Origin: an uncultured Bacteroidia bacterium
GTDB lineage: Bacteria > Bacteroidota > Bacteroidia > Bacteroidales > UBA932
Direction of reading: 5' to 3'
DNA: 64,000 nt
Assembly: GCA_902779765.1 (NCBI GenBank)
Contig: CACZCQ010000003.1
Coordinates: 62,001-126,000 of the forward strand
The position numbers were made by a program, and so were the translations under genes. Below the pieces are notes generated by a model, which searched no databases, was not told where the DNA came from, and worked only from the letters and a program-made list of their open reading frames with translations. Positions 1-59,125 of this stretch are shown one piece after another (the stretch's first letter is position 1; each line of letters begins with the position of its first letter).

Positions 1-1689
1 TGCCTTGAAGCCGGAGAGGTCTTCCATCATCTGAAGGTCGAAAGGCTTGAGGAACCTGACATTGTACACTGCCGGGCAGAGTCCGGTCTCTTCCTTGAGC
101 CTCGCGGCAGCTTCCACAGCCTTCCATACCACAGGACCGAGGGCCAGGACGGCCACACCGGATCCTTCTGTCATCAATTCACTCTTTCCGGTCTCGATCG
201 GGGAGGGTTCGGAATCCTTCCAGCCGGAGCCTTCGCCGAGACCTCTCGGATACCTTATTATAAAAGGACCGTCCTTGATCCCGAGACCCTTGTAGAGAAG
301 GTCCCTGAGTTCGGCCTCATCCTTCGGGGCGGCGATCACCGTATTCGGAATGCTCCTCATGGCGGCCAGGTCGAATACGCCCTGATGGGTGGCGCCGTCC
401 TCGCCCACCAGTCCGGCCCTGTCGAAACAGAACACTACCGGCAGATGCTGGAGAGCCACGTCGTGGACTATCTCGTCATATGCCCTTTGGGCGAAGGTGG
501 AATATATGGAGCAATACGGCTTCATCCCGCCTGCGGCAAGTCCTGCGGCGAACGTTGCGGCGTGCTCCTCGGCGATGCCAACGTCGAAGAACCTTTCCGG
601 GAATTCTTCAGCAAAAGCGGTCATTCCACTGCCGGTGGCCATTGCGGGGGTGATTCCCACAACCTTCGGATCCTTTCTGGCCAGTTCGCAGAGTACCTCT
701 CCGAAGACATCCTGGTAGCGGACCCTGCCGGACCCTGAGCCTGTCGAAGGGACCTGGGCCGCGCTCTTCCTCTCGCCGGTTTCAGGATCGAACTTCCCGG
801 GAGCATGCCATGTGGTCGGGTCCGCTTCGGCGGGGGCATATCCCTTGCCTTTAACGGTGCAGGTGTGGAGGATCTTAGGTCCCTTGATGTCCTTGAGCCT
901 CTTCAGGGTCTGGACGACAAGGGCGACATTGTTGCCGTCGATAGGACCGAAGTACCTGAATCCGAATGCCTCGAAGATATCTCCTCCGGACTTGTTCACG
1001 AGCCCGGATTTCGTATTCCTGATCACTCTCTGGAGCCAGTTCCTGAAATTACTGGAACCCAGTTTGTTCCAGACGTGGGTCTTGAGTCTGTTGTAGGCCG
1101 GGTCGGTGGTTATCTTCAGCAGGTAGGAATGCATCGCGCCCCTGCTTCCGTCGATGGCCATGTCGTTGTCGTTCAGGATGACCAGCAGGTCGGTGTCTGA
1201 ATCGCCGGCGTTGTTGAGGCCTTCGAGTGCAAGGCCACCGGTCATCGAGCCGTCACCTATCATCGCGACCACCTTTTCGCCCGATCCGGTGAGCTGGGCT
1301 GCCTTGGCCAGGCCGAGGGCTGCGGAGATGGAAGTGGAAGCGTGACCGGCTCCGAATGCATCATAGGGGCTCTCGTCCCGGTTCGGGAATCCGCTTATCC
1401 CGTCTTTCCTGCGATTGTTCCTGAAAACTTCCTTCCTGTCCGTGATTATCTTGTGGGCGTAGGCCTGATGACCTACGTCAAAGACCACCTTGTCGGACGG
1501 GGTGTCAAAGACATAATGGGTTCCGACGATCAGTTCCACGGCGCCCAGGCTCGAGGCGAGGTGCCCCGGATTCGAGGCGCAGCATCTGACTATGTAATCC
1601 CTTATTTCGTCGCAGAGCCCGGGCAACTCGGAAACATCCAGCTTCCTGAGGTCCTGCGGAGTGTTGACTTTGTCCAGAATCTTGTACAT
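1..1689 (-). CDS. dxs: 1-deoxy-D-xylulose-5-phosphate synthase, C-terminus off the window
   Basis: Thiamine-diphosphate enzyme that condenses pyruvate with glyceraldehyde 3-phosphate, the first step of the MEP isoprenoid pathway, and also feeds thiamine and pyridoxal synthesis. Reading the minus strand from the ATG at 1689 gives about 563 residues before the left edge; the family is usually about 630. Visible hallmarks are the ThDP motif GDGSMTGG, the catalytic-Glu region GIAEEHAATFAAG, and the transketolase segment DRAGLVGEDGATHQG. The linker between the ThDP domain and the pyrimidine-binding domain (residues about 312-320, PSTGSGSG) is encoded by a dispersed repeat (730-754). A minus-strand -7 box, TACCTTTG, lies at 1709-1716, about 20 nt before the ATG. 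Identification is firm; only the 3' end is missing. Confidence 0.97.
   Translation of the reverse strand, partial: MYKILDKVNTPQDLRKLDVSELPGLCDEIRDYIVRCCASNPGHLASSLGAVELIVGTHYVFDTPSDKVVFDVGHQAYAHKIITDRKEVFRNNRRKDGISGFPNRDESPYDAFGAGHASTSISAALGLAKAAQLTGSGEKVVAMIGDGSMTGGLALEGLNNAGDSDTDLLVILNDNDMAIDGSRGAMHSYLLKITTDPAYNRLKTHVWNKLGSSNFRNWLQRVIRNTKSGLVNKSGGDIFEAFGFRYFGPIDGNNVALVVQTLKRLKDIKGPKILHTCTVKGKGYAPAEADPTTWHAPGKFDPETGERKSAAQVPSTGSGSGRVRYQDVFGEVLCELARKDPKVVGITPAMATGSGMTAFAEEFPERFFDVGIAEEHAATFAAGLAAGGMKPYCSIYSTFAQRAYDEIVHDVALQHLPVVFCFDRAGLVGEDGATHQGVFDLAAMRSIPNTVIAAPKDEAELRDLLYKGLGIKDGPFIIRYPRGLGEGSGWKDSEPSPIETGKSELMTEGSGVAVLALGPVVWKAVEAAARLKEETGLCPAVYNVRFLKPFDLQMMEDLSGFKA
730..754 (-). repeat. 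Dispersed in-frame repeat, copy 1 (inside dxs)
   Basis: Near-palindromic segment with core CCCTGAGCCTGTCGAAGGG, bounded by GGACC at the start and GGACC at the end. It is read in frame by dxs as a Ser/Gly-rich linker. The same core recurs inside three other unrelated genes in this window (5619-5642, 55231-55331, 58556-58596). Confidence 0.7.
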
Positions 1690-1708
1690 CCCGTAAAACT
1701 TGGATGGA

Positions 1709-1716
1709 CAAAGGTA
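1709..1716 (-). promoter_or_regulatory. -7 promoter box for dxs
   Basis: Minus-strand TACCTTTG matches the Bacteroidota -7 consensus TAnnTTTG and sits 20 nt upstream of the dxs ATG. No clear TTTG was seen at the ideal upstream distance, so this is a partial promoter match. Confidence 0.45.
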
Positions 1717-1771
1717 CGATTTTATTTCAATTATACTTAAATTCGCGGAGTCAAGACAACAGTTGATTATT

Positions 1772-3388
1772 ATGAATGCTAAAACGACACTGAGGGATTC
1801 TGCCGCGATGCGTTGGACAGCCTTGCTGCTCCTCGCCCTGGCGATGTTCTGTTCCTACATTTTCATGGATATCCTTTCGCCTATCAAGGATCTGATGGCG
1901 GAGACACGCGGTTGGGATTCCACGGCTTTCGGCACGATGCAGGGAGCTGAAACCTTCCTCAACGTATTCGTTTTCTTCCTGATCTTCGCCGGTATCATCC
2001 TGGACAAGATGGGAGTCCGCTTCACGGCGGTCCTTTCGGGTGCGGTGATGCTCATCGGTGCCATAATCAAGTGGTACGCCGTGAGCAATTCCTTCATCGG
2101 AAGCGGTGCCGAGACCTGGTTCACGAACAACCTGAATTACATTCCCCTGTTCGACGAACTCGGAGTCTCTCCCTTCTACCGCGGGATGCCCGCCTCCGCC
2201 AAACTTGCCGCCTGCGGATTCATGATATTCGGATGCGGCGTGGAAATGGCCGGAATCACCGTGAGCCGCGGTATCGTCAAATGGTTCAAAGGTCGCGAAA
2301 CCGCGCTGGCAATGGGCTCTGAAATGGCCCTCGCCCGCCTGGGAGTCGCCACCTGCATGATATTCTCCCCCTTCTTCGCCAAGTTGGGAGGCAGTGTGGA
2401 CGTGTCCCGTTCGGTTGCGTTCGGAGTCGTCCTCCTCTGCATCGCCTTGATAATGTTCATAGTCTACTTCTTCATGGACCGCAAGCTGGATGCCCAGACC
2501 GGTGAGGCAGAAGAGAAGGACGATCCTTTCAAGGTGAGCGACATCGGTCAGATCCTCCGCAGCGGTGGATTCTGGCTGGTGGCCCTGCTCTGCGTGCTCT
2601 ACTATTCGGCAATCTTCCCGTTCCAGAAGTATGCCGTGAACATGCTCCAGTGCAACCTCACGTTCAGTCCCGTGGATCCTTCGTCGTTCTGGGGCGGCAG
2701 CGCCGTGACGATAGTCCAGTACCTGATAATGCTGGTCGTCGCAGCTACATCATTCTCCAGTAATTTCGTCAAGGACAAGTCTTTGAAGTACGGCCTCCTG
2801 ATCACTGCAATCGTCGCCCTGGTCGTGTATTGTTACATGGGTTACATGCGCCAGAGCGCAGAGACCGTATTCGCAGTATTCCCGCTCCTTGCCGTCGGTA
2901 TCACCCCGATCCTCGGAAACTATGTCGACCATAAAGGAAAGGCAGCCTCGATGCTGGTGCTCGGTTCCCTGCTGCTCGTGTTCTGCCATCTCACCTTCGC
3001 CTTCATACTGCCCGCATTCAAGGGTAATGCAGTAGGTGGGGTTATCGTGGCTTACGTGACCATCCTCGTGCTCGGAGCATCATTCTCCCTGGTACCTGCG
3101 GCCCTCTGGCCGAGCGTCCCGAAGCTGGTGGATTCCAAGATCATCGGTTCGGCTTACGCGTTGATATTCTGGATCCAGAACATCGGTCTCTGGCTCTTCC
3201 CGCTCCTTATCGGTAAGGTGCTTGACAAGACCAATCCCGGCGTCACCGATCCGACCCAGTTCAACTACACCGCACCCCTGGTGATGCTTGCATGCCTTGG
3301 AATAGCCGCACTGCTCCTGGGACTCTTGCTCAAGGTAGTCGACCGCAAGAAGCATCTCGGCCTCGAAGAGCCGAACATCACGGAATAA
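1772..3388 (+). CDS. MFS transporter (paralogue 1)
   Basis: Inner-membrane major facilitator of 538 residues from the ATG at 1772. An in-frame ATG at 1700 would add 24 residues without transporter character, so the later start is preferred because the first hydrophobic helix follows soon after it. Many hydrophobic segments, the loop motif LDKMGVRFT after helix 2 and SVPKLVDSKIIGSAYALIFW near helix 10-11 support the family. It is clearly paralogous to the convergent MFS gene at 4898-6310 (shared motifs GW-S--G, RGIVKWFKG/RSIAKWFKD, LVPAA-WPSVPK). No substrate can be read from the sequence. A strong terminator follows at 3406-3430. Confidence 0.88.
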   Translation: MNAKTTLRDSAAMRWTALLLLALAMFCSYIFMDILSPIKDLMAETRGWDSTAFGTMQGAETFLNVFVFFLIFAGIILDKMGVRFTAVLSGAVMLIGAIIKWYAVSNSFIGSGAETWFTNNLNYIPLFDELGVSPFYRGMPASAKLAACGFMIFGCGVEMAGITVSRGIVKWFKGRETALAMGSEMALARLGVATCMIFSPFFAKLGGSVDVSRSVAFGVVLLCIALIMFIVYFFMDRKLDAQTGEAEEKDDPFKVSDIGQILRSGGFWLVALLCVLYYSAIFPFQKYAVNMLQCNLTFSPVDPSSFWGGSAVTIVQYLIMLVVAATSFSSNFVKDKSLKYGLLITAIVALVVYCYMGYMRQSAETVFAVFPLLAVGITPILGNYVDHKGKAASMLVLGSLLLVFCHLTFAFILPAFKGNAVGGVIVAYVTILVLGASFSLVPAALWPSVPKLVDSKIIGSAYALIFWIQNIGLWLFPLLIGKVLDKTNPGVTDPTQFNYTAPLVMLACLGIAALLLGLLLKVVDRKKHLGLEEPNITE

Positions 3389-3405
3389 TATTCCTAACTC
3401 CATAG

Positions 3406-3430
3406 CCCGGGTTTTTCACCCGGGTTTTTT
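3406..3430 (+). terminator. Rho-independent terminator after MFS gene 1
   Basis: Perfect 7-bp stem CCCGGGT / ACCCGGG with a TTTTC loop (3406-3424), followed by six T residues (3425-3430). It lies 18 nt after the MFS stop codon. Confidence 0.85.
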
Positions 3431-3458
3431 GTTGGGAAGCGGATCCTTTCCCGCCCTC

Positions 3459-3659
3459 CCATGAGGTGCTTCCAGCGCCATGGTCTTTTGGGAGAACCAC
3501 ATGGCGGGCATATGCCCCATTTCCAGCCATGTGGTCCTTCCCCCTGCACCACATGTCCCGTTTCCGTACCTTTTTCCGGCCATGTGGTCCTTCCCCTGAA
3601 CCACATGTCCCGTTTCCGTACCTTTTTCCGGCCATGTGGTCCCTGATCTGAACCACATG
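3459..3659. repeat. Left REP-like cluster: three hairpins plus one degenerate copy
   Basis: Each unit is CCATGTGGT, an 11-12 nt loop, then ACCACATG, giving an 8-9 bp stem. Intact copies are 3527-3555, 3580-3607 and 3632-3659. A degenerate copy begins CCATGAGGT at 3459-3467 and closes with ACCACATGG at 3496-3504. The 24-nt spacers at 3556-3579 and 3608-3631 are identical, so 3556-3607 and 3608-3659 form a 52-bp tandem duplication differing only in the loop. This and the terminator explain the gene-free stretch 3389-3742. Confidence 0.85.
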
Positions 3660-3693
3660 TATTGTTGGAGGAGCAGTTGCGGTCTGGGTTATA

Positions 3694-3725
3694 TTTGGGG
3701 ATTCCGGAGGGATTATATATCTTTA
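3694..3725 (+). promoter_or_regulatory. Probable promoter of the RAYT gene
   Basis: TTTG at 3694-3697, a 20-nt spacer, and TATCTTTA at 3718-3725 (one mismatch to TAnnTTTG), 17 nt before the ATG at 3743. Confidence 0.45.
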
Positions 3726-3742
3726 AGAAAACTTAGACAGAT

Positions 3743-4702
3743 ATGAAAAATTTCATTAAAGATCATGTTTCCTGCCGAGAGGCCCCGGCGTCATCATTTC
3801 CAAAAACACTGGCGAATCTTCGAAGCCAAGGGGCGCCCATCGAATACTATTTCGTGACAACCGACCATCTGACGGAGAGCATCTGGTTCCGGGATGACCA
3901 GGACTTCAAAACCGGGATGAATTATGTTGCAATCATAGCCCTTGTTTCAGGAATAAAGGTACTTGCATTCATCCTTATGTCCAATCACGTCCATCTTGTC
4001 CTTCAAAGCACGGAGGCGGAAGCAGAATGGTTCGCCTATGAACTGAAAAGGCGGTATTCTGAATATCTGAACAGGCGTTACGGAACAGATGATTTCCTCA
4101 GGCTCAACAAGGTGGACATTCAAAAGGTATCCCTTGAAGATGAGTCCCTGGAAAGGGCGTTTGCGTATACGCTTATGAACAGTGTCGCGGCGAATATCTG
4201 CCTGACTGCCTCCGATTATCCTTGGTCAAGTATCGGCGCATATTTTAAGGTCACCCCCTCCAAAGGAGTAAGATTCGGAGAGATGTCATTGAGTTCCCGC
4301 AGAAGAATCCTGCACAGCCGGTCCATCATACCGGATGATACGGTCATCGGAGAAGGCGGGTTTATTCTCCCTGAGTCATTTATTCCTGTCGAATTCGTGG
4401 AATCCATATTCAGGACGCCTAAAAGACTTAATTACTTTCTGATGAACTCCTCGAAGGCAAAAAGACGGCTGGAAGTATCCGGAAAGGGATTACCTTCTTT
4501 CAAAGACCAGGTAATCCTGGCAGCAGTCCCGGACATATGCATGTCGGTATTCCGGAAAAAGTATACTTCAGAGTTGGATCCGGAAGAAACCGTGGAACTG
4601 ATTAGGCAGGTCAGGAGACGTTTCTGCGCGGATATCAGCCAGATTGCCCGGGTCTTGGGAATCCCATATTCCCAAGTCACCAGAATGCTGGAAAGCTTTT
4701 AA
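3743..4702 (+). CDS. REP-associated tyrosine transposase (RAYT), Y1/HUH family, with C-terminal extension
   Basis: Single-strand DNA endonuclease-type transposase of 319 residues. The metal-binding HUH motif is H82-V-H84 in the segment MSNHVHLVL. Candidate nucleophile tyrosines follow in the helix LKRRYSEYLNRRYG (Y105, Y108, Y113), and the conserved YPWSS segment is at 160-163. These are family hallmarks of IS200/IS605-like and RAYT proteins. The core occupies residues about 30-170. The remaining ~150 residues end in a helix-turn-helix-like stretch (ISQIARVLGIPYSQVTRML), longer than many RAYTs and possibly DNA-binding. The gene is flanked on both sides by palindromes, which would be its expected substrates. 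Which tyrosine is catalytic cannot be decided from sequence alone. Confidence 0.85.
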   Translation: MKNFIKDHVSCREAPASSFPKTLANLRSQGAPIEYYFVTTDHLTESIWFRDDQDFKTGMNYVAIIALVSGIKVLAFILMSNHVHLVLQSTEAEAEWFAYELKRRYSEYLNRRYGTDDFLRLNKVDIQKVSLEDESLERAFAYTLMNSVAANICLTASDYPWSSIGAYFKVTPSKGVRFGEMSLSSRRRILHSRSIIPDDTVIGEGGFILPESFIPVEFVESIFRTPKRLNYFLMNSSKAKRRLEVSGKGLPSFKDQVILAAVPDICMSVFRKKYTSELDPEETVELIRQVRRRFCADISQIARVLGIPYSQVTRMLESF

Positions 4703-4736
4703 GCCGTTTCCCTCAAACACTTCTGCCCTTTCCCGG

Positions 4737-4871
4737 CCATGTGATTCTAATTCCGAACCACATGGCATGTTTTTCAGGGATATTCTGGCCATGTGGTTCA
4801 TCATTCAGCACCACATGGTTGGATTTAGGGGTATATTCTGGCCATGTGGTGCTTCTCTCGGCACCACGTGG
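4737..4871. repeat. Right REP-like cluster: three hairpins
   Basis: Three hairpins of the same design as on the left: 4737-4765 (first arm CCATGTGAT, one mismatch), 4789-4818, and 4842-4871 (second arm ACCACGTGG). Loops are 11-12 nt. The 23-nt spacers (4766-4788 and 4819-4841) both end in TATTCTGG but are unrelated to the left-hand spacer, so the two clusters are different subtypes with the same arms and the same 52-53 nt period. Confidence 0.85.
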
Positions 4872-4897
4872 CGAGCTTTGGCCGTTTATTTCAGGGG

Positions 4898-6310
4898 TCA
4901 TTTCCCTGAAGGGCTGTCGAGCTTCAATTCCGGACGCCGGGCAGAGGAGCGCCTTAGGCCTAATGCGAGCAGGAGGGCGACTACGCAGACGGTGACGAAC
5001 ATCACTTCGACTGCAACTGCACCGGCTGCGCTTTCAGGGCCGCTGGAAGAACTACCGGCATTTGCAAGGGCGGCTTTAGCCAGGATTCCCCCGGCGAACA
5101 TCTTGAACAGCATGAGCCCTAGGTTCTGCACCCAGTAGATCAATGAATATGCAGTCCCGAGAACTTTGGACGGGACGATCTTGGGCACCGAAGGCCACAT
5201 CGCCGCGGGAACCAGGGAATATCCGAACCCCAGGAAGACCATCGACAGGTAGCCGTAAGCCGGCACACCTTCTGGAGCGAAGGCCAGAAGGATGTGGGCG
5301 ATCAACGCAAGTATGGCGCCTGCGACCATCCAGCGGGTACCTTTGCCGATCTTGTCCACCATTATTCCGAACAGGGGAGCGAAAATCACTGTAGAGAACG
5401 GCAGCATCGAGACCATCCAGCTGGCAGCCTCGACCGGCACACCGAATCTCGGTATCAGGATGGCGCTGGCGAATTTCTTGAACGAAATAATACTGCTGTA
5501 GAAGAATACGCAAAGCAGCGCGATCATGATGAACTGCTTGTTTTTCAGCAATCCCAGCACATCTGAGAAACGGAACTTGTCCTCCTCCTTGCCCTTTCCC
5601 TCGGCAGCCTCAGGATCCGGTTGGTGAGCCTGTCGAACCACCGCCATGTGTGCCTTGTCAAACCTTGCATCCATAGCAACGAATACCGCCCAGAGGATCA
5701 TGCCCGCCGCCATCAGCGCAAGTCCGAGGAAGGCAGGCCTGGCGGTTTCGGCCAGGGAGTAGATCTCTCCCGGCGCCTTCGCTGCAACCAGCCTTGGAGA
5801 GATGATCAGGGCAAAGGCGGTTCCCAACCTTGCGATGGCAAGCTGCAGCCCCATCGCGAAGGCCATGGGCCCGTCCTTGAACCATTTCGCTATGGACCGG
5901 GTGACGGCCACGCCGGCAATCTCACTTCCAAGTCCGAAGAGCATGCACCCCACGTAAGCCACGCTCAGGGAAGTCTTCGGAGCCATCCCGGAAGTTATCG
6001 CCCAGGCGACGAGGGCTGCTCCTCCGGCCATCATGCCTACGAATATCGAACCGGTGATCCTTACACCCCATTTGTCCAGGAGCATCCCGCAGATCACCAG
6101 GCCTCCGAACACGCAGAGGACTGAATATCCGCTCGTGTATAGACCATAGTCGGCAGAATTCCACCCTAACTCGATCAGGGATGGGTTCTCGAACAAATGG
6201 GAGAGGGTGCTGAACATGTCGTCGAAGAAGTACGAAGCGAACATAGGCACCACAAGGCACGCCAGAGCAATCCATGGCAAAGCCTTCATTGATTTAGGAT
6301 TATTATTCAT
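4898..6310 (-). CDS. MFS transporter (paralogue 2)
   Basis: Inner-membrane major facilitator of 470 residues starting at the ATG at 6310. It is paralogous to the gene at 1772-3388 (LDKWGVRITGS, RSIAKWFKDGP, SLVPAAMWPSVPKIVPSK). The long central cytoplasmic loop carries the sequence VRQAHQPDPEAAEG at residues about 221-234, encoded by a dispersed repeat (5619-5642). It is transcribed towards paralogue 1 and ends 27 nt from the last REP-like hairpin. A minus-strand -7 box lies at 6331-6338. The substrate is unknown. Confidence 0.88.
   Translation of the reverse strand: MNNNPKSMKALPWIALACLVVPMFASYFFDDMFSTLSHLFENPSLIELGWNSADYGLYTSGYSVLCVFGGLVICGMLLDKWGVRITGSIFVGMMAGGAALVAWAITSGMAPKTSLSVAYVGCMLFGLGSEIAGVAVTRSIAKWFKDGPMAFAMGLQLAIARLGTAFALIISPRLVAAKAPGEIYSLAETARPAFLGLALMAAGMILWAVFVAMDARFDKAHMAVVRQAHQPDPEAAEGKGKEEDKFRFSDVLGLLKNKQFIMIALLCVFFYSSIISFKKFASAILIPRFGVPVEAASWMVSMLPFSTVIFAPLFGIMVDKIGKGTRWMVAGAILALIAHILLAFAPEGVPAYGYLSMVFLGFGYSLVPAAMWPSVPKIVPSKVLGTAYSLIYWVQNLGLMLFKMFAGGILAKAALANAGSSSSGPESAAGAVAVEVMFVTVCVVALLLALGLRRSSARRPELKLDSPSGK
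5619..5642 (-). repeat. Dispersed in-frame repeat, copy 2 (inside MFS gene 2)
   Basis: Core GGTGAGCCTGTCGAACC, flanked by GGTT and ACCACC. It encodes part of the hydrophilic loop between the two transporter halves, where extra residues should be tolerated. It shares GAGCCTGTCGAA with the dxs copy. Confidence 0.7.
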
Positions 6311-6330
6311 TCGAAGTCAGTATGGATAAT

Positions 6331-6338
6331 CAAAGATA
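6331..6338 (-). promoter_or_regulatory. -7 promoter box for MFS gene 2
   Basis: Minus-strand TATCTTTG, a perfect TAnnTTTG match, 20 nt upstream of the ATG at 6310. No clear -33 element was seen. Confidence 0.5.
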
Positions 6339-6363
6339 CGAAGAATTATAATTATTCGGTCAT

Positions 6364-6397
6364 TTTGAGGGAAATCGGCGATTTATTCTTAACTTTA
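6364..6397 (+). promoter_or_regulatory. Probable promoter of the dap operon
   Basis: TTTG at 6364-6367 and TAACTTTA at 6390-6397, 22-nt spacer, 28 nt before the dapE ATG. The whole divergent gap is about 115 nt, too short for a lysine riboswitch, and none was recognised. Confidence 0.35.
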
Positions 6398-6425
6398 TAA
6401 GTTTTTATGAAATGTCGATTTGGAG

Positions 6426-7451
6426 ATGGACCTTGAGCTGTTCATAGAGATGCTGGGCATATGCTCGACTTCCGGTGAGGAAAGACGCATGGCGGATTTC
6501 CTGAAGGAGAATCTGCATGCACCCGGGATCATCGAGCAGGAGGTCGGGGATGGAACTGTCAACCTTCTGTTCGACTGGTCCGGGACGGGCAATCCCTCCT
6601 TCGTGTTCTGCACCCATATGGACACTGTGCCTCCCTATATTCCCCCGAGCGTGGAGCTGACGAATGAAGGGGAAACCATAGTGAAAGGCCGCGGCAGCTG
6701 CGATGCCAAAGGGCAGATATTCTCGATGTACAACGCCTGCCTCCGCCTTGAAAAGGAGGGGTACCGTAACTTCGGACTTCTGCTGCTATCCGGTGAGGAG
6801 ACCGGCTCCCACGGTGCCAAGGCATATTCAAGGGACAATCCCGGGAGCGATTTCGTGCTGGTGGGAGAGCCTACCGACAACTGCCTGGCAACCGCTGCCA
6901 AGGGGACCAAGTCCTTCGAGGTGACGATTCCCGGGAAGGCCTGTCATTCGGGGTATCCTGAACATGGTTCCAGTGCGGTGGAGAGATTCGTGGAAGCGAT
7001 GGACAATCTCAAGGACCGGGGTTTCCCGGCCGACCCCGTCCTCGGCGAAACCACTTGGAACGTCGGCGATCTCCACAGCAACAATCCACAGAATGTCCTG
7101 AGCCCTGAAATCAGTTTCCGTATCTATTTCAGGACGACCTTCACGACAGACGGACTGGTCCAGCAACATCTTCTCGAAGCATGCCCTGCCGGTACCGTGA
7201 TACATGCTTTCGGCGGAGACTCACCGAGCATGTATTTCAGCGAGGTCGAGGGAATCGATTCCAAGCCGGTTTCGTTTGGCAGCGATGCCCCACGGCTCGG
7301 GAAGTTTGCAAGGAGGGCCATATGCGGTCCCGGATCCATACTCACAGCCCACACGCCTGAAGAATTCGTACTCGTGTCCGACCTCCGGAAGGCGGTGGAA
7401 CAGTACGTCAAGATATTCAAGACAGTGACAAAGGAACAAAACAACATATAA
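6426..7451 (+). CDS. dapE: M20 family deacylase, probable succinyl-diaminopimelate desuccinylase
   Basis: Zinc peptidase-fold enzyme of 341 residues from the ATG at 6426 (a TTG at 6420 would add two residues). It has the M20 metal and catalytic motifs in order: THMDTVPP near residue 64, RGSCDAKGQ near 93, SGEETGSHG near 124, GEPTD near 148, and a late AHTPEEF His. M20 enzymes with this layout include ArgE, DapE and LysK. The choice of DapE comes from context: it heads an operon with lysC, dapB, dapA, dapD and dapF, and dapD commits the pathway to succinylated intermediates. It would release succinate from N-succinyl-LL-diaminopimelate. The family call is firm, the substrate well supported by neighbours. 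Confidence 0.85.
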   Translation: MDLELFIEMLGICSTSGEERRMADFLKENLHAPGIIEQEVGDGTVNLLFDWSGTGNPSFVFCTHMDTVPPYIPPSVELTNEGETIVKGRGSCDAKGQIFSMYNACLRLEKEGYRNFGLLLLSGEETGSHGAKAYSRDNPGSDFVLVGEPTDNCLATAAKGTKSFEVTIPGKACHSGYPEHGSSAVERFVEAMDNLKDRGFPADPVLGETTWNVGDLHSNNPQNVLSPEISFRIYFRTTFTTDGLVQQHLLEACPAGTVIHAFGGDSPSMYFSEVEGIDSKPVSFGSDAPRLGKFARRAICGPGSILTAHTPEEFVLVSDLRKAVEQYVKIFKTVTKEQNNI

Positions 7452-7463
7452 AACAAACTTGAC

Positions 7464-8819: not shown

Positions 8820-9493
8820 TAAAGGCAGTCATTAGCGGATACGGCCGGATGGGCCATATGGTGGAAGCCGCCCTCGAGGCAAGAGGAATAGCAGTCGCCG
8901 GAGCCAGCGAAGACATCGCTTCGTTCGACAGGGCGATTGCCGGGGAGTGCGTATGCATCGACTTTACGACACCTGATGCATTCAGGGCGAACTACAAGGC
9001 TCTGGCGGACAATTTCAAGGCCGTTGTCGTGGGCACCACCGGATGGAACGACATAAAGGACGAGGTCATCGGTTATTTCGAGTCCAAGGGCACTCCGATG
9101 ATATATTCTTCGAATTACTCTGTCGGGGTCAATGTGCTTTCCGCCGCCGTGGGCCTGATTTCGAAGTATCTCGGCAAGGCCGGCGGCTATGCCCCCTACA
9201 TAGTCGAAAAGCATCATATCCATAAACTGGATGCTCCCAGCGGAACCGCAAAGTCCCTCGCCGAAGTCGTTGAAGAGGGAATGTCCGCAAAACCCGATGT
9301 CGCTTCGGTGCGCGTCGGGGAGATCGCAGGAATCCATACCGTGGGTTTTGAAGGTGGAAACGACAGGATCACCATCACCCACGAAGCATTCTCCCGAAAG
9401 GGATTCGCCGAAGGAGCCGTAGTCGCAGCAATGATGACGGAAGGCCTTACAGGTGTCCACGAATTCAAGGAACTGTTTTTCAAGGAAGTTTAG
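8816..9493 (+). CDS. dapB: 4-hydroxy-tetrahydrodipicolinate reductase
   Basis: NAD(P)H-dependent reductase forming tetrahydrodipicolinate. The protein has 225 residues, shorter than the ~270 of the E. coli enzyme. It has the nucleotide-binding GYGRMG near the N-terminus, the catalytic EKHHIHKLDAPSGTAK segment (His-His and Lys) in the middle, and a GGNDRITITHEAFSR stretch near the C-terminus. It overlaps the lysC stop by 4 nt and is followed by dapA after 3 nt. The compact length is common in Bacteroidota. Confidence 0.95.
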   Translation: MIKAVISGYGRMGHMVEAALEARGIAVAGASEDIASFDRAIAGECVCIDFTTPDAFRANYKALADNFKAVVVGTTGWNDIKDEVIGYFESKGTPMIYSSNYSVGVNVLSAAVGLISKYLGKAGGYAPYIVEKHHIHKLDAPSGTAKSLAEVVEEGMSAKPDVASVRVGEIAGIHTVGFEGGNDRITITHEAFSRKGFAEGAVVAAMMTEGLTGVHEFKELFFKEV

Positions 9494-20057: not shown

Positions 20058-21338
20058 ATGGAAAAGAATGGATACATAAGGACTTGGGTCCGGGACTGGT
20101 TGGAGATATTCAGTCACGAGATCAGGGAAATATTCCATGACGGAGGTGTAATGCTGATATTCTTCGTGGCCGGACTCGCATATCCCCTGCTTTACAATCT
20201 GGTCTATCTCAACGGTATACTCTCCGAGACCCCGGTAGCCATCGTCGATGAGGCCGCCTGCTCCGACAGCCGGCGCTTCATAAGGGAGATCGATGCGACC
20301 AGGGAGGTAGAGGTGGCATACAGATGCATCAACATGGCTGAAGCCGAAAAGCTGATGCAGGAAAGGAAGGTCAACGGAATAGTCTATTTTCCCCGTGACT
20401 TCGGAGAGAAACTCGCAAGGAAAGAGACAGCCACACTTTCGCTGTATGCCGACATGAGCAGTTTCCTGTATTACAAGAATGCTATGATGGCGACCAATTT
20501 CGTGATGCTGCATGAAATCGGCCAGATACAGATGGAAAGGTATTCGCTGGCCGGGATGACGGAACAGGAGGTTTCGCAGACAGTGACGCCTGTCGGATAC
20601 GAAGACAACAACCCTTACAACAGGGCTTTCAACTACAGCTTCTTCCTGATTTCGGCCATCCTGATGATCATCATCCAGCAGACGATGTTCTACGGCATGT
20701 CCCTCCTGGTAGGAACCCGCAGGGAGAAGAGCCGGAACTATTCATCCCTGCCCGAGAATTATGCCGGATACGGGACGATGAGGATCGTTTTGGGAAGGGG
20801 TGCGGCTTACTGGCTGCTGTATCTCGGGATCGGAATATACATTGCCTTCATTGTGCCGGCAATCTTCGGTATTCCTCAGAGAGGACAGTTCCTGGATATC
20901 CTGGCGTTGCTGGTATTCTTCGTTACGGACTGCGTCTTCTTCAGCATGACATGCTGCATGCTGATCACCAGGAGGGAGTCGGTATTCCTGCTGTTCCTGG
21001 CCATATCGCCGATCTGCCTGTTCCTGACGGGATGCTCGTGGCCGACAGTGGCTTTCCCGAAATTCTGGAAGATAGTCTCGTTCATCTTCCCGTCGACTTT
21101 CGGAGTCCAGGGATACATGAACCTGAATACGGCAGGAGGAGATATCTCAGCCGCCGGTTTCCAGATGACCATCATGGTCGTCCAGACCATAATCTACTTC
21201 ATCCTGGCCTGTGCAGGGGTATTCTTCGAGCACTGGGTGATCCGTAACATCGACAGGCTCAGGGAGACACGCGACGACATCGCGCAACTCGCCGGCATCG
21301 ACCGTGAGGAGGATGCCAGGATCATCAAGGGCAACTGA
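20058..21338 (+). CDS. ABC-2 type transporter permease (second of pair)
   Basis: 426 residues from the ATG at 20058 (a TTG at 20049 is in frame but overlaps the upstream stop). It has the same layout as its neighbour: N-terminal helix, periplasmic domain (VNGIVYFPRDFGEKLARKETATLSLYADM split over it), then a helical bundle with the FLTGCSWPTVAFPKFWK segment. The tandem paralogues probably form a heterodimeric permease. It is the last gene of the export operon and is convergent with the aldolase gene 17 nt further on. The exported substrate is unknown. Confidence 0.86.
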   Translation: MEKNGYIRTWVRDWLEIFSHEIREIFHDGGVMLIFFVAGLAYPLLYNLVYLNGILSETPVAIVDEAACSDSRRFIREIDATREVEVAYRCINMAEAEKLMQERKVNGIVYFPRDFGEKLARKETATLSLYADMSSFLYYKNAMMATNFVMLHEIGQIQMERYSLAGMTEQEVSQTVTPVGYEDNNPYNRAFNYSFFLISAILMIIIQQTMFYGMSLLVGTRREKSRNYSSLPENYAGYGTMRIVLGRGAAYWLLYLGIGIYIAFIVPAIFGIPQRGQFLDILALLVFFVTDCVFFSMTCCMLITRRESVFLLFLAISPICLFLTGCSWPTVAFPKFWKIVSFIFPSTFGVQGYMNLNTAGGDISAAGFQMTIMVVQTIIYFILACAGVFFEHWVIRNIDRLRETRDDIAQLAGIDREEDARIIKGN

Positions 21339-50035: not shown

Positions 50036-50067
50036 TTTGTTAATACGGAAAAAGTTGACTATATTTA
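50036..50067 (+). promoter_or_regulatory. Probable promoter of recQ
   Basis: TTTG at 50036-50039, 20-nt spacer, TATATTTA at 50060-50067 (one mismatch to TAnnTTTG), 19 nt before the recQ ATG. Confidence 0.5.
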
Positions 50068-50086
50068 TACATAAATCAGCATTGCC

Positions 50087-52297: not shown

Positions 52298-53142
52298 ATG
52301 GTGACCATCCTGAGCTTTCGCCCCTCGAAATGCCCCAGGCGCCTGAATCCGAACATCTTTACATACTGAGCGAAATAGTCGAATTTGAATCCGACCTGGT
52401 CGGCCTTATGCGAGTCCGATCCGAGGCAGATTATGTCACCGCCCAGTTCCATGTACCGGATGAGTATCTCCCGGTCGAGCTGCGGGGTGCGGAGACCGTA
52501 TGTCCTGTAGGACTTGGTGTTGATTTCAAGTCCTTTACCATTCTCTATCAAGTATTTGAGTATCTCATCGATAAGCCCGGGGAAGTCCCTGTACAGGATG
52601 CTCTCCTTGGGATAGGGAGCATACCGGACGATATAGTCGAAGTGCCCCATTATGTCGAAATCCTCAAGCCTCTTCATTTCCCTGAGGAGGGTTTCCAGAT
52701 AACGGCCGTAGGCCTCCTTCCAGTTCTTTCCTTTGTAATAAGGACCGAAATAAGGATCGGTGTCCTCGAGGTAATGGACCGAAGCGATGACCTGGTCGAA
52801 GTTCTGTGCGGCCAGCAGGTTGCGGTTCAGGTCACGGCTATTCTCTTCGAGGCCTATCTCGATTCCCTTGAGGACCTTGAATTTCCTGGCATTCCTGCCG
52901 AAGGCGCCTTCGGATACGAGTCCGCCCACCCGGTCTATCTCCGCCTGCTGTGCTTTTACGTCGAAGACCTCATTGACGATCGGTTCGAACTCCTCCTTCA
53001 TCTTGGGGACGAAATAGTCGCAATGGTCGGTAAAGCATATCCCTCCCAGACCCTTTTCCACCGCGGATCTGACGCTCTCCTCTACCGACGTGCCTCCTCC
53101 ATCGAACGAGAACTGGCTGTGATTGTGTGTGTCGAAAAACAT
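52294..53142 (-). CDS. PHP-family histidinol-phosphatase-like protein
   Basis: 282 residues from the ATG at 53142. It has the PHP metal motifs DTHNHSQFSFDG at the N-terminus, CFTDHCDYF, GIEIGLE, IASVHYLE, MGHFDYI and GSDSHKADQVG, as in the HisK-type histidinol-phosphate phosphatases. No other histidine-biosynthesis gene is near, so the substrate could be another small phosphate ester. The gene is convergent with recQ. Confidence 0.82.
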   Translation of the reverse strand: MFFDTHNHSQFSFDGGGTSVEESVRSAVEKGLGGICFTDHCDYFVPKMKEEFEPIVNEVFDVKAQQAEIDRVGGLVSEGAFGRNARKFKVLKGIEIGLEENSRDLNRNLLAAQNFDQVIASVHYLEDTDPYFGPYYKGKNWKEAYGRYLETLLREMKRLEDFDIMGHFDYIVRYAPYPKESILYRDFPGLIDEILKYLIENGKGLEINTKSYRTYGLRTPQLDREILIRYMELGGDIICLGSDSHKADQVGFKFDYFAQYVKMFGFRRLGHFEGRKLRMVTI

Positions 53143-53167
53143 ATTCACGAATATAGCAAATTTTAAT

Positions 53168-53175
53168 TAAATTTG
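53168..53175 (+). promoter_or_regulatory. -7 box upstream of the DUF308 gene
   Basis: TAAATTTG, a perfect TAnnTTTG match, 22 nt before the ATG at 53198, in the short gap to the divergent PHP gene. Confidence 0.45.
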
Positions 53176-53197
53176 TAATTCAAACCCTCTCCCAGAT

Positions 53198-53872
53198 ATG
53201 TTCTTCGTAGGATACAAAACAAAGTTCGACAGTATCACCAGGGCCGTCGCTGCCATAGGCATAGGCCTGGTGATGATATTCGGTAACAACGCCCCGGTCA
53301 AGGTCGTGAAGATTATCGCCCTCCTGCTCATTGCGGCCGGTGTGGCATCGCTGGTATACGGCCTGATCAAGTCCAAGGACCAGCGCGGCATGTATCAGGT
53401 ATTGATCGTCAATGCCGTCCTGGACGTAGTGCTTGGCCTGCTGCTGTTCTTCAATCCCCAGTGGGTGGCCGGATTCATAGTGTCCATAATAGGTATCGTC
53501 CTGATCCTGTTCGGAGCCCTTCAGCTTTTCGTGCTGGCAGGTGCGATGTCATTGATCGGGACAGGTTTCTCCTCGCTGATCCTTTCCATTTGCGCGGTTG
53601 TGGGCGGAGCCTTCCTCCTCTTCAATCCGTTTACCATCAATGTCATGAGTATAATCGCAGGGTGCTTCCTCGTGCTTTACGGAGTTTCCGAACTGATCTC
53701 TACCTGGAGGGTTCTCAAGGCCAGGAATGAATATGAGATCCGTCGAGCACCGGCCCCTGAGAGTCCCGAGGCTCCCGTTCCCGGAAAGATCGACGCTTCC
53801 GGTATAGGCGATGCCCAGGAAGTTGAATTTGAGAGGATCGACGATCCGGATGACCTCGACGACATGAATTGA
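53198..53872 (+). CDS. DUF308 (HdeD-like) membrane protein
   Basis: 224 residues with about six hydrophobic helices in residues 12-165, arranged as repeated short hairpins (GIGLVMIFG, DVVLGLLLFFNPQWVAG, VVGGAFLLFNPFTINVM) typical of DUF308/HdeD proteins, then a ~55-residue acidic, Pro-containing cytoplasmic tail. HdeD is linked to acid resistance in E. coli, but the role here is unknown. It is followed by dnaG after 4 nt. Confidence 0.82.
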   Translation: MFFVGYKTKFDSITRAVAAIGIGLVMIFGNNAPVKVVKIIALLLIAAGVASLVYGLIKSKDQRGMYQVLIVNAVLDVVLGLLLFFNPQWVAGFIVSIIGIVLILFGALQLFVLAGAMSLIGTGFSSLILSICAVVGGAFLLFNPFTINVMSIIAGCFLVLYGVSELISTWRVLKARNEYEIRRAPAPESPEAPVPGKIDASGIGDAQEVEFERIDDPDDLDDMN

Positions 53873-53876
53873 TGGC

Positions 53877-55967
53877 ATGATCCCCCAGGAAACGGTACAG
53901 AGAATCCTTGACACCGCCCGTGTAGAAGAGGTGGTGGCTGATTTCGTATCCATGCGGAAGCGTGGTGCGGAATGGTGGGGATGCTGTCCTTTCCATAATG
54001 AGAAAACCCCCTCGTTCCACGTTGTCCCGGCTAAAGGGATATACTATTGCTTCGGCTGCCATAAGGGTGGGTCTGCGGTCGGCTTCGTGATGGACCATGA
54101 ACATATGTCCTATCCCGACGCCCTCCGTTACCTGGCCAGGAAATACGACATAGAGATAGTCGAAGAAGAGGTGAGCGCCGAAGACCTGGCTGCACGGCAG
54201 AGGAACGAGAGCCTGACCCTGGTGTCGGAGTTCGCTGCAGGGTTCTTCCGGGAACAGCTTGGAAGCGTTGAAGGTAAATCCATCGGGCTCAATTATTTCC
54301 ACACCCGCGGGTTGGAAGATGAGATTATCTCCAAATTCGGCCTGGGCTGGGCGCCGTCGGACAAGCACTCCTTCACTGATGCCGCCAAGGCCAAGGGGTT
54401 CAAGGACGAATATCTCCTAGAGACCGGACTGTGCGCCAAATATGACAACAGCGAGGAACTCCACGACAGGTTCGTGGAGCGGGTGGTATTCCCTATCCAC
54501 TCCGTGAGCGGCAGGGTGATCGCCTTCGGTGCCAGGACCCTGAAATCGAAAGAGGACGGGAAGCCATACGCCAAGTATGTGAATTCCAAGGAGAGTCCCA
54601 TATATGTCAAGAACCAGTCCCTGTACGGAATCTGGTTCGCCAAGGGGGATATGGCCAAGAAAGACAGGTGCTACCTTGTCGAAGGCTATCTGGACGTCAT
54701 CTCCATGCATCAGCTGGGCATCACCAACGTGGTGGCTTCCAGCGGGACCGCCTTGACCGACGGGCAGATCCGGCTCATAGGGAGGTTCACGAAGAACGTC
54801 ACCATTATGTATGACGGCGATCCGGCTGGTATAAAGGCGGCTTTGAGGGGAATCGACATGTTCCTTAAGCAGGGCATGGATGTAAAGGTTGTCCTCCTAC
54901 CCGACGGAGATGATCCGGATTCGTTCTCCCGCAAGCATACGCTTGAGGAAGTGGAAGAGTTCCTTGCCTCGTCGGAACAGGATTTCGTGGACTTCAAGAG
55001 CTCTCTTCTGATGGAGGACACTGCCGGGGATCCACTCAAGAGGGCGAATGTGATCAATGAGATAGCTGACACCGTGGCTGATATCCCGGATGCGGTGAAG
55101 CGGGAGACTTACATCGATTTCCTCAGCAGGAAGTTCGACATAAGGCGCGACGCCCTTGAAGACAGGGTCGGGGCGACAAGGGCCAAGAACATCATCGCAG
55201 AACGTAAAGCCGCCGAACGGGTCCATCCACGGTCCCAGAGCCGTGTCGAAGGGTCGCAGCAGAACGCAGAAGGTGGGTCCCTTGTTCAGGAAGGTGAGTC
55301 CTTTGTTCCGGTTGGTGAGCCTGCCGAACCACGGCCGGGAATCGACTCAAGGGTGCAGGGAGGTGATTTTTCTTCAAGCCTGGCCAGGCTTGAAGAAAAC
55401 AAGATCATGGCCAAGGCCGAACGCGACCTCCTGAATTTCATCCTGACCTACGGTACCACAACCCTGGAGTTCCAGAGTGACTCGGAATTCTATGCCGATT
55501 CCGAGGATGAACGTCGGACGGTCTTCGACTTCATCAGCCAGGCACTTGAGGAGGACGATGCCCATTTCTCCAACTCGGTGTACAAGGCCACTTACGATGC
55601 TTATGCCGATGACTATTATGATGGCTATGCCCAGGATGAGATTGTGAAGCACCTGCTGGACGGACCGGACAGGAATATCGCCTATGTCGTTTCGCAGCTC
55701 TCCATGACCGAGGTCTATGAGCTGACCATCAAGAATCTGCGGGATGCTATGATGTCCAGGGGTTCGTGGCTCACCAAGTTCGTTCCCAAGGCGATCCTGG
55801 TTTTCCAGAGCTGCCGGTTGGAGGACAAGGAGAACAGCCTGAAACAGGAGCTCGCCCAGGCCCAGAAGGATGCGGATTCCGGACGCATCCTCACCGTGAT
55901 GAATGAACTCATTGAAATCCGCAAGACCATGAAGGCCGTCAAGGTCCGCCTCGGCCGCGAGAAATAG
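53877..55967 (+). CDS. dnaG: DNA primase with repeat-derived linker
   Basis: 696-residue primase. The zinc-binding domain (CPFH near 38-41, CFGCHKGG near 60) comes first, then the RNA polymerase core with TOPRIM motifs VEGYLDVISMHQLG and DGDPAGIKAALRG. At residues about 452-485 a low-complexity insert is encoded by dispersed repeats (55231-55331), including three successive 7-residue units (EGGSLVQ, EGESFVP, VGEPAEP). The remaining ~210 residues form the helicase-interacting C-terminal region. The insert lies in the linker between the catalytic core and the helicase-binding domain, where length is free to vary. Confidence 0.95.
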   Translation: MIPQETVQRILDTARVEEVVADFVSMRKRGAEWWGCCPFHNEKTPSFHVVPAKGIYYCFGCHKGGSAVGFVMDHEHMSYPDALRYLARKYDIEIVEEEVSAEDLAARQRNESLTLVSEFAAGFFREQLGSVEGKSIGLNYFHTRGLEDEIISKFGLGWAPSDKHSFTDAAKAKGFKDEYLLETGLCAKYDNSEELHDRFVERVVFPIHSVSGRVIAFGARTLKSKEDGKPYAKYVNSKESPIYVKNQSLYGIWFAKGDMAKKDRCYLVEGYLDVISMHQLGITNVVASSGTALTDGQIRLIGRFTKNVTIMYDGDPAGIKAALRGIDMFLKQGMDVKVVLLPDGDDPDSFSRKHTLEEVEEFLASSEQDFVDFKSSLLMEDTAGDPLKRANVINEIADTVADIPDAVKRETYIDFLSRKFDIRRDALEDRVGATRAKNIIAERKAAERVHPRSQSRVEGSQQNAEGGSLVQEGESFVPVGEPAEPRPGIDSRVQGGDFSSSLARLEENKIMAKAERDLLNFILTYGTTTLEFQSDSEFYADSEDERRTVFDFISQALEEDDAHFSNSVYKATYDAYADDYYDGYAQDEIVKHLLDGPDRNIAYVVSQLSMTEVYELTIKNLRDAMMSRGSWLTKFVPKAILVFQSCRLEDKENSLKQELAQAQKDADSGRILTVMNELIEIRKTMKAVKVRLGREK
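55231..55331 (+). repeat. Dispersed in-frame repeats, copy 3 group (inside dnaG)
   Basis: A degenerate copy at 55231-55255 (core CAGAGCCGTGTCGAAGGG) is followed by three tandem 21-bp units at 55269-55289, 55290-55310 and 55311-55331. The last contains GGTGAGCCTGCCGAACC, matching the MFS copy with one change. All are in frame with dnaG. Confidence 0.7.
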
Positions 55968-55974
55968 CCTGCCG

Positions 55975-56739
55975 TCAGAACTTGAACGAGAGGCCGCCTG
56001 TGAAGGAGAAGAACCAGCGGAGGGGCTGCTCTGTTGAGGTTAAGACTCCTACGTCAGACCCGTTCTCGAACCGCACTGATTCGGTGTTGAAGATGTAATT
56101 CCTGGTCAGATTGTAATGGAAGGCCGGATTGAGTTTCAGGTCGAATCTCCAGATCCTGTAGTTGAAACAAGCGCCTGCATCCAAGGAAAGGGAGAACCGT
56201 CCGTTCCTTTCGGTCCATGTCCTGTCGATATCCATAAATCCCGGCCCCCAACTGGCCGTTGAAACCGGAGAACTCTCCCCTGAAATGTATCCGGGAGTGA
56301 GTCCGGCGTGGAATTCCACATTGCTGAACAAGTTTATCAGGAAAGCGGCGAGGGCACCTTGCAGCGGCTGAGGATTACCCATTATCACATCATAGCCGAA
56401 TGAGGTTCCCGCTGCCTCGACCCCTCTCCTGGCCCGGTTGGAGGAATTCAGGGACCTGGTCCGGTAGGCGAAGGCTACCGGTATTCCGAATGCATTGTCT
56501 ACTTCAGCAACCCGGGAGGCCAGTTGGAATCCCGTCCTGTATCCTATCCCGTTCGAGTAAAAATGAGCGTATGTAATCCCGAATACGGCATCGGCTTCCT
56601 CTCCTTTGTACATCGGATCATAGACTCCGGCATAGAAGCCGATGTCATCCGAAAGGTTCGAGCGCTTTTCTGCAGCAGTCTGTGCATCGGCGCAGATGGA
56701 GAGAACCAGCATGGACGTAAAGATAATGAGTCGTCTCAT
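55975..56739 (-). CDS. Outer-membrane beta-barrel-like protein, function unknown
   Basis: 254 residues from the ATG at 56739, with a signal peptide (MRRLIIFTSMLVLSICADAQ). The mature part alternates short polar and aromatic stretches (FYAGVYDPMY, HFYSNGIGYRTGFQLA, FSLSLDAGACFNYRIW, FDLKLNPAFHYNLT) and ends in SFKF, a C-terminal Phe typical of outer-membrane barrels. No close family was recognised. It is convergent with dnaG (7-nt gap) and divergent from metG. Confidence 0.6.
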   Translation of the reverse strand: MRRLIIFTSMLVLSICADAQTAAEKRSNLSDDIGFYAGVYDPMYKGEEADAVFGITYAHFYSNGIGYRTGFQLASRVAEVDNAFGIPVAFAYRTRSLNSSNRARRGVEAAGTSFGYDVIMGNPQPLQGALAAFLINLFSNVEFHAGLTPGYISGESSPVSTASWGPGFMDIDRTWTERNGRFSLSLDAGACFNYRIWRFDLKLNPAFHYNLTRNYIFNTESVRFENGSDVGVLTSTEQPLRWFFSFTGGLSFKF

Positions 56740-56790
56740 ATCGTTTTTGCCTGTGAAAATTTTATATGCAGCCGTGTAAGGCAACAAATA

Positions 56791-56831
56791 ATGTTCCTTA
56801 TCGGAACATCCGTCGGTTTTTCTTACCTTTG
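56791..56831 (+). promoter_or_regulatory. metG -7 box and adjacent inverted repeat
   Basis: TACCTTTG at 56824-56831 is a perfect -7 box, 20 nt before the ATG at 56852. A perfect inverted repeat, ATGTTCC-TTATC-GGAACAT, at 56791-56809 covers the place where the -33 element would lie, a good position for a repressor operator. A hairpin role is the alternative. Confidence 0.45.
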
Positions 56832-56851
56832 CAGGTTGAATACAATCATTT

Positions 56852-59125
56852 ATGGAAAAGAATTTCAAGAGAACGCTAGTGACATGCGCGTTGCCGTACG
56901 CCAACGGCCCCGTGCATATCGGCCATCTGGCCGGAGTCTATGTGCCTGCCGACATATACGTGAGGTATCTCAGGATGAGGGGCAAGGATGTGCTCTTTGT
57001 CTGTGGATCCGACGAACACGGTGTGCCTATCACGATCAAGGCACGCGCCAACGGCGTGACTCCCCAGGACATAGTCGACAAGTATCATGGAATAATCAAG
57101 GATTCCTTCCTCAGGCTTGGAATCAATTTCGACATCTATTCCCGCACGACCTCGAAGGTTCATCACAAGAATGCCTCCGAGTTCTTCCGCGAACTGTACG
57201 ACAAGGGCAAGTTCATCACCAAGGAGAGCGAGCAGTATTATGATCCGGAGGCTAAGACTTTCCTTGCCGACCGTTACATAGTGGGTACCTGCCCCAAGTG
57301 CGGCAACCCGAACGCTTATGGTGACCAGTGCGAGAAGTGCGGCAGCACCTTGAGCCCCGAGGAACTGATTGACCCGAAGTCCAAGCTCAGCGGCGCCCAG
57401 CCCATAAAGAAGAAGACCTCCCACTGGTACCTTCCTCTGGACCAGTACGAACCCTGGCTCCGCGAGTGGATACTCGAAAACCACAAGGAGTGGAGGACGA
57501 ACGTCTACGGCCAGTGCAAGTCCTGGCTGGACGGAGGCCTGCAGCCCAGGGCTGTCAGCCGCGACCTTGACTGGGGAGTTCCCGTCCCCGTGGAAGGAGC
57601 TGAAGGCAAGGTGCTCTATGTCTGGTTCGATGCCCCGATCGGCTACATATCCAATACACAGGAGCTTCTTCCCCAGAGTTGGGAGAAGTGGTGGAAGGAC
57701 GAAGATACCCGCCTGATCCATTTCATCGGAAAGGACAACATCGTATTCCATTGCATAGTCTTCCCTTCTATGCTGAAGGCGCGTGAGAACTATATCCTTC
57801 CGGATAATGTCCCTTCCAACGAGTTCCTGAACCTCGAGAGCGACAAGATCTCGACCTCCCGCAACTGGGCCGTCTGGCTCAATGAATATGTGGACGAGTT
57901 CCCCGGCCAGGAAGATGTCTTGCGCTACGTGCTATGCGCCAACGCTCCCGAGACCAAGGATAACGACTTCACCTGGAAGGATTTCCAGCAGAGGAACAAC
58001 AGCGAACTCGTGGCCATACTCGGAAACTTCGTAAACAGGGCGGTGGTCCTGACGCAGAAGTATTTCGGCGGCAAGGTCCCCGCCAACCTGAAGCCGGAAG
58101 CGATTGATACGGAGGCTTTGGGACAGATTCCCGGACTGCGCCGCAGCCTTGAGGCCAATCTGGAGGGATTCCATTTCAGGGAGGCGCTCAAGGATGCGAT
58201 GAGCATCGCCCGAATAGGCAACAAGTATATATCCGACACTGAGCCCTGGAAGGTCGCTAAGACCGATATGGACAGGACCGCTTCGATCCTCTACACTTCG
58301 CTCCAGATCTGCGCCAGCCTGTCGATCGCGTTCGAGCCGTTCACTCCGTTCTCGGCAGAGAAACTGCGCGGGATACTGAACGTCGGACTGGATGCCGGTT
58401 TCGACCATCGTGCCGGAGAGGGCGAGCCTACGGTCAACTTCTTCAAGCCCGGAGAGGCCCGTGCACTGCACACGGTCCCTGAGCTTGCCGGAAGTTCGGC
58501 GGCAGCCCCGGACCATGGATGTCCGGCCGACATCGTATTCCCGGTACACGGCAAGCCGGTCCCTGAGCCTGTCAAAGGGCTTGTCGAAGGGCCGGTATTC
58601 AAGTGGGATGACCTGGGCAGGGCCGACCTTCTGCCCGTCGGTCATCAGCTCGGAGAGGCCGTGCTGCTCTTCAGCAAGGTCGAGGACAGCGTGATCGATG
58701 CCCAGATCGCTAAACTGAACGCCACCAAGGAGGCTAACGAGGCTGCTGCAAAGGCAGCTGCCGCAGCTGAGGCCGCCCAGAAGGTTGAGCCGCAGAAAGC
58801 CGAGGTGACCTTCGATGACTTCGGTTCCATGGATATCCGTACGGCCACCGTCCTTGAGGCTGAGCGTGTCCCCAAGACCGACAAGCTGCTCAAGCTTACC
58901 ATCGACACCGGCATAGACAAGCGTACGATCGTTTCCGGAATAGCCGAATACTATTCACCCGAAGATATGCTCGGCAAGCAGATATGCATACTCGCGAACC
59001 TGCAGCCCAGGACAATCCGCGGCATTGAATCCAAGGGAATGATCCTGATGGCCAAGCAGGGCGACGGCAAGATGCGCTTCATAACTCCGCAGGAGGTCGT
59101 GACCAATGGAGCAGTTGTCGGTTAA
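56852..59125 (+). CDS. metG: Methionyl-tRNA synthetase with C-terminal tRNA-binding domain
   Basis: 757-residue class I synthetase. HIGH motif H22-IG-H25, zinc-knuckle pairs CPKCG and CEKCG (about 147-168), and the KMSKS counterpart KISTS (near 340) in [13 protein letters not shown]. The anticodon-binding helical domain is interrupted after residue about 510 by a region of about 75 residues ending in repeat-encoded [16 protein letters not shown] (about 567-582). After an Ala/Glu linker an EMAP/Trbp111-type OB domain ([19 protein letters not shown] to the end) gives dimerisation and tRNA binding. Confidence 0.95.
58556..58596 (+). repeat. Dispersed in-frame repeat, copy 4 (inside metG)
   Basis: Core GTCCCTGAGCCTGTCAAAGG followed by a second partial core CTTGTCGAAGGG, bounded by CCGG on both sides. 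It encodes part of a Pro/Glu/Val-rich insert in the anticodon-binding region. It matches the dxs copy with one change in the GAGCCTGTCGAA core. Confidence 0.7.

Follow-up and report, generated by a model that had tools for sequence, protein, structure and literature searches.

Short palindromes lying in frame within genes are known from the Rickettsia palindromic elements (RPEs; PMC10969869), and intragenic copies have already been described for both the GTAG and the CGTC class of repetitive extragenic palindromes (REPs), most of which are intergenic (PMC3733652). The CGTC-tagged REPs, whose tag commonly takes the form TGTC, are short palindromes found in many phyla, with some in-frame intragenic copies and, in the parts of these two sources accessible to us, no known dedicated transposase; RPE-4 and RPE-6 have been assigned to this class (PMC3733652). 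Here we describe a repeat of approximately 28 bp that lies within dxs, a major facilitator superfamily (MFS) transporter gene, dnaG and metG in a 64-kb stretch of contig CACZCQ010000003.1 (hereafter the window) from an uncultured Bacteroidia bacterium, whose whole genome (G000) comprises 2.48 Mb in 31 contigs. We consider it likely that the repeat is a REP-like, non-autonomous palindrome that has multiplied in G000 and is tolerated in protein linkers.

With up to one mismatch, GAGCCTGTCGAA is matched 6 times in the window against 0.40 expected, a number reached in 0 of 100 shuffles. Four of these matches (at 737, 5626, 55317 and 58565) are the copies in the four genes where the initial annotation had placed a near-palindromic repeat, and the peptides it had read from them are indeed encoded (Table 1). 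The match at 21249 on the minus strand lies inside a called gene in a native context, in the FDRLR-type frame (NIDRLRE) and without a paired stem. The search for the core was then extended to the whole genome, where CTGAGCYTGTCGAAGG occurs 33 times exactly (control 0), 54 times at one mismatch or fewer and 69 times at two or fewer (reversed control 4 at two or fewer), and CTGAGCCTGTCGAAGG occurs 45 times at one mismatch or fewer (reversed control 0). It is clear that the core is far more frequent than expected from the controls.

Alignment of the 54 copies shows conservation from approximately −7 to +20 relative to the core, beyond which the flanks are flat. This block gives the length of about 28 bp and a consensus of CCGG, T, CCCT, GAGCYTGTCGA, AGGG, CC(N)G. 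The generalized unit is approximately CCGG-T-NNNT-GAGCYTGTCGA-ANNN-CCGG, in which the loop GAGCYTGTCGA is near-constant and the stems have four bases, the length of both stem and loop varying with how G-A mismatches are counted. Fully paired stems among the 62 loop sites are CCCT/AGGG (30), TGGT/ACCA (3), TCCT/AGGA (2), CGGT/ACCG (1) and TGCT/AGCA (1), and some copies have the stem altered on both sides, a covariation that comprises few events. The MFS and dnaG copies carry the TGGT/ACCA stem and are therefore not among the 54.

To place the copies relative to genes, a codon-usage caller trained on 46 window open reading frames was used. It puts 48 of the 54 copies in called genes and 6 outside, and since this intragenic share is close to the coding density of the window (93.4%; p = 0.17), genes are not visibly avoided by the repeat. 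The intragenic copies are read as PE(P/L)VE in the sense direction (21), as PST(G/S)SG (14) and LRQAQ (12) in antisense and once as antisense FDRLR, with none in the sense LSLSK frame and a stop in the sixth, so that three of the five stop-free frames account for 47 of the 48. The earlier proposal that the repeat keeps the frame and gives unrelated peptides on different frames and strands therefore extends from four genes to the genome. The 48th copy, at C12:28958 in LigA (SFDRLN), has the same residues in both relatives and is native, and the match at C1:279705 is probably native as well. Such cases are what can be said for chance matches, or for native Pro/Gly/Glu-rich linkers with shared codons, as the source of the whole set; this explanation is contradicted by the counts against controls and by the same DNA being read in three frames and on both strands, and we give it hardly any credence.

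The frame preference recurs elsewhere. In the related genome G090, 29 of 44 copies (in 35 stretches around exact copies; coding density 75.1%, same caller) lie in genes, 27 of them in the same three frames and 2 as LSLSK. Among the matches listed for the exact 23-mer, 118 stretches from many organisms, Bacteroidales included, hold 181 exact cores, of which 70 are in called genes by rough calls trained by G+C bin; 62 of the 70 are in the three main frames, 5 read LSLSK and 3 FDRLR. In this mixed set, then, most copies are intergenic, as with ordinary REPs.

In behavior the repeat resembles both the RPEs and the intragenic CGTC REPs, and it lacks the defining features of each, as far as the accessible parts of the two sources describe them. 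Like the CGTC REPs it is short, dispersed, partly intragenic and has no flanking transposase gene among those examined, and a sister family, TGTCATYCTGAGCGNAGCGAAGRATCT, starts with TGTC and has CTGAGC-N-CGAAG in common with it. Unlike them, it ends in CCGG on both sides rather than in CGTC, TGTC or CCTC in the 54-copy alignment; its stem is CCGG plus NNNT, without the A-T start or CCA tail of CGTC REPs, which have an 8–9 bp stem starting A-T and a loop of 4–5; and it is mostly intragenic in G000, whereas most REPs are intergenic. The analogy with RPEs drawn in the initial annotation holds insofar as the repeat is palindromic, in frame in unrelated genes and tolerated, but RPEs are about 150 bp long with a conserved peptide, and the present repeat is about 28 bp, encodes three peptides and belongs to a different organism. 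It shares with GTAG REPs and REPINs a short hairpin unit, non-autonomy and a patchy occurrence among related genomes, yet it has no GTAG end in the 54-copy alignment, is not mainly extragenic in G000, and flanks none of the Y1/RAYT (REP-associated tyrosine transposase) genes examined (4 + 21 + 30 loci). The end tag of neither REP class is present. In literature text, of which figures and supplements that may contain the repeat were outside reach, GAGCCTGTCGAA occurs only in papers with unrelated titles, GAGCTTGTCGAAGG and CTTCGACAAGCTCAG do not occur, ATTCTGAGCG does not occur with CGAAGAAT and “repeat”, and five encoded peptides appear only in unrelated work.

The hosts had been taken to be, or to look like, ordinary chromosomal genes. 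Three of them, dxs, dnaG and metG, score above NCBIfam cut-offs; the MFS host gives only sub-cut-off matches to MFS transporter subfamilies. We sought 44 host-gene segments in the relatives G077, G052 and G017 and aligned orthologues of the 48 intragenic copies (the host at C19:3693 has no orthologue and that at C7:154973 only a fragment). In these sister species the repeat residues are missing or replaced by different residues, with the exceptions of LigA C12:28958 and probably C1:279705, at which the residues are shared with relatives. Gaps stand opposite the repeat in Dxs, MurF (C4:107409), thiamine diphosphokinase (C10:126068), RadA (C19:4804), a FolA-like protein whose match is below its cut-off, two proteins matching no profile (C3:257685 and C1:185188) and MetG (in G077), among others; SSB, UvrB, a sigma-54 activator and an aminotransferase are also among the hosts. 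The solved structure that best matches Dxs, 2o1s_A, is 8 residues shorter at the repeat site. The MFS proteins of G054 and G085 are likewise some 11 residues shorter at their site, and those of G090, G052, G017 and G077 have other residues there. The dnaG copy lies beyond the TIGR01391 match (residues 1–420 of 696), in a long linker that is variable across the eight relatives aligned and contains an ALRQAQ copy in G090. G090 also has PVPELVEGPV at the G000 repeat position of MetG, which may reflect either shared descent or parallel insertion.

The exact core is found in 4 of 24 same-genus genomes and in 1 of 16 others of the order. At one mismatch or fewer, 14 of 20 chosen relatives have a match, eight of them with one or two only, and the larger counts are 61 in G090, 15 in G003, 10 in G077 and 6 in G052 (controls nonzero in 4 of the 20). 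In a phylum sample the exact core occurs in 56 of 392 genomes (G000 included) and 40 of 179 genera, with no reversed-control match among those listed. This dispersal and patchy occurrence suggest that the repeat may be mobile. The exact 23-mer is also present, among the matches listed, in contigs labeled Microbacterium, Sphingomonas, Nitrospirae, Gemmatimonadota, Chloroflexi, Treponema and others. This range, together with the use of three of the five open frames, speaks for a sequence with a selected function, whether in linking protein domains or in binding at the DNA or RNA level, whose copies would not be selfish. We regard that as improbable, given that one DNA gives three unrelated peptides in unrelated hosts, that the exact core is missing in 20 of 24 same-genus genomes, and that orthologues manage without the repeat.

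As side observations, the richest genome of the phylum sample (G500, 6.4 Mb, same class) has 203 exact cores, and in G494 nine exact cores recur every 81–82 bases on contig C10 at approximately 625900–626566, apparently as a tandem array.

Relatives often show other repeat peptides at the repeat site, namely ILRSAQND, CHSERSEES, VILSEAKDL and RSLSGAEG. They are encoded by TGTCATYCTGAGCGNAGCGAAGRATCT in G077 and by the TGTCATYCTGAGCGNAGCGAAGRATCT and CCGGTCCCTGAGCGGAG(C/T)CGAAGGGCC types in G052, and CTGAGC-N-CGAAG is common to these palindromes and the G000 repeat. Genome counts of CTGAGCN{3,5}CGAAG (reversed control in brackets) are 51 (3) in G000, 102 (2) in G077, 161 (5) in G052, 171 (3) in G090, 18 (4) in G017 and 4 (4) in G054. 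Of 80 such matches in the host orthologues at one mismatch or fewer, 47 are no more than 20 residues from the G000 site against a uniform expectation of 7.1 (C12:28958, C7:154973 and C19:3693 omitted), a null that is too lenient because 25% of columns have an indel that close. A stricter treatment with exact cores merged neighboring copies, required both relatives and also omitted C1:279705. It finds a palindrome in 22 of 72 site-genome pairs (at 19 of 36 sites; two relatives). Over 300 draws of other indel-tolerant positions in the same proteins, among them indels created by repeat insertion, the mean is 4.9 and the highest count 9, and the uniform null gives 1.1. Allowing one mismatch gives 31 of 72 pairs against 6.8. 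Orientation is the same in 29 of 38 pairs (not independent of one another; C1:279705 again omitted), and the reading phase of paired repeats is the same in some and different in others.

The shared sites may reflect either a few very permissive linkers or the in-place replacement of one family by another. It is conceivable, and we put it forward tentatively as somewhat short of an even chance, that some coding sites are long-lived docking places where, once an insert is present, other palindrome families take its position in frame in the course of species divergence. The shared-site result was not found described in the accessible parts of the literature examined. Two further observations concern these families: the intragenic TGTCATYCTGAGCGNAGCGAAGRATCT palindromes in the G077 and G052 host orthologues (L261–L336) read as ILRSAQND, HSERSEES or VILSEAKDL by frame, and MetG and DnaG of G052, G090 and G017 (L327, L345, L094–L096) carry another recurring peptide, approximately RVHSRFAAAEYGLSS, from GGCCGTACTCAGCCGCAGCGAAGCGAG-like DNA.

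What moves the repeat is a separate question. The window contains a RAYT-like gene (Table 1), missed by the gene caller because its codon usage is atypical, which was considered as the mover for its place between two copies. A REP moved by such a resident Y1/IS200-like transposase would fit the presence of four Y1_Tnp genes in G000 (the window gene, C5:177728 [L031], C8:29719 [L033] and C17:5007 [L034]) and of Y1_Tnp matches in all 11 of the high-copy Bacteroidota carriers tested. However, each of the four is surrounded by its own different repeats, those of the window gene being 52-base-spaced CCATGTGGT...ACCACATGG palindromes on both sides (approximately 3450–3670 and 4735–4870), and no copy of the CCGG repeat at three mismatches or fewer lies around any of them. 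Among 21 Y1 loci in 23 carriers, an exact copy occurs at one only, about 1.3 kb away, and 15 of the 23 have no Y1_Tnp match (G003 and G138, with identical Y1 match places, are one genome and were thus entered twice). At 30 Y1 loci from 11 high-copy genomes (of 43 matches, 13 being without a locus) there is no exact CTGAGC-N-CGAAG core, and a match with one mismatch is present at two. Since its flanking repeat differs and the other Y1 loci examined are not flanked by the CCGG repeat, the window RAYT is an unlikely mover, and we hold movement by a resident RAYT in general to be unlikely too; a flanking RAYT is not supported, and a RAYT may act at a distance.

For a REP-like palindrome multiplied in G000, new copies would come from a single-stranded hairpin processed by an enzyme, and frameshifting insertions, like those in conserved regions, would be lost. 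Insertions in hydrophilic linkers, reading PVPEPVEGP, GPSTGSGTG or ALRQAQGP, would persist as near-neutral segments. Several palindrome families would use the same linkers, so that sister species would carry different families at one site. The evidence for this reading is the dispersal, the two-sided stem changes, a gene location close to coding density, the three frames, and the absence or replacement of repeat residues in orthologues; the like frame use in G090, the sites shared with other families and the patchy occurrence also speak for it.

Several points weigh against it. Movement of the repeat was not seen, and the Y1 loci examined yielded no enzyme that moves it. The stem is not fully paired at 25 of the 62 loop sites, some of which are native matches and several of which retain three of four pairs, and the single TGCT/AGCA stem is that of C1:279705. 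Folding of four consensus forms as DNA gives z of −1.3 to −1.8, only modestly better than shuffles, and for this reason the palindrome argument rests on stem covariation. The extra residues span 4 (FolA) to about 32 (MetG), which leaves the inserted unit without a fixed definition and departs from the single clean insertion envisaged at the outset. Copies within one gene are not all independent, and the gene caller is home-made. On balance the initial interpretation is supported, in that the repeat appears from sequence to add protein segments, with any role putative. Its span for dnaG (55231–55331) is to be revised to one clear and one degenerate unit (Table 1).

Table 1. Repeat copies and the transposase-like gene in the window.
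Feature	Position	Strand	Remarks
Repeat copy in dxs	728..755	+	Gene on −; antisense frame; PSTGSGSG; CCCT/AGGG stem
Y1/RAYT-like transposase gene	3743..4702	+	319 aa; judged not part of the repeat element
Repeat copy in MFS-type transporter gene	5617..5644	+	Gene on −; VRQAHQP; TGGT/ACCA stem
Further GAGCCTGTCGAA match	24775	−	One mismatch or fewer
Possible degenerate copy in dnaG	55235..55253	+	6 mismatches to 19-base consensus
Repeat copy in dnaG	55308..55335	+	Sense frame; VGEPAEP; TGGT/ACCA stem
Repeat copy and second half-copy in metG	58556..58595	+	Sense frame

In-frame intragenic palindromes are known from Rickettsia and as a minority in REP-rich genomes; in G000 they are the rule, and close relatives offer empty sites, sites with the same repeat and sites with another family. 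Selfish DNA building protein segments, the in-place replacement of one family by another, and the mover of repeats that have no adjacent transposase can thus all be tested within one genus. If the coding sites do act as docking places, each lineage's dominant repeat would rewrite the same linkers in many housekeeping proteins.

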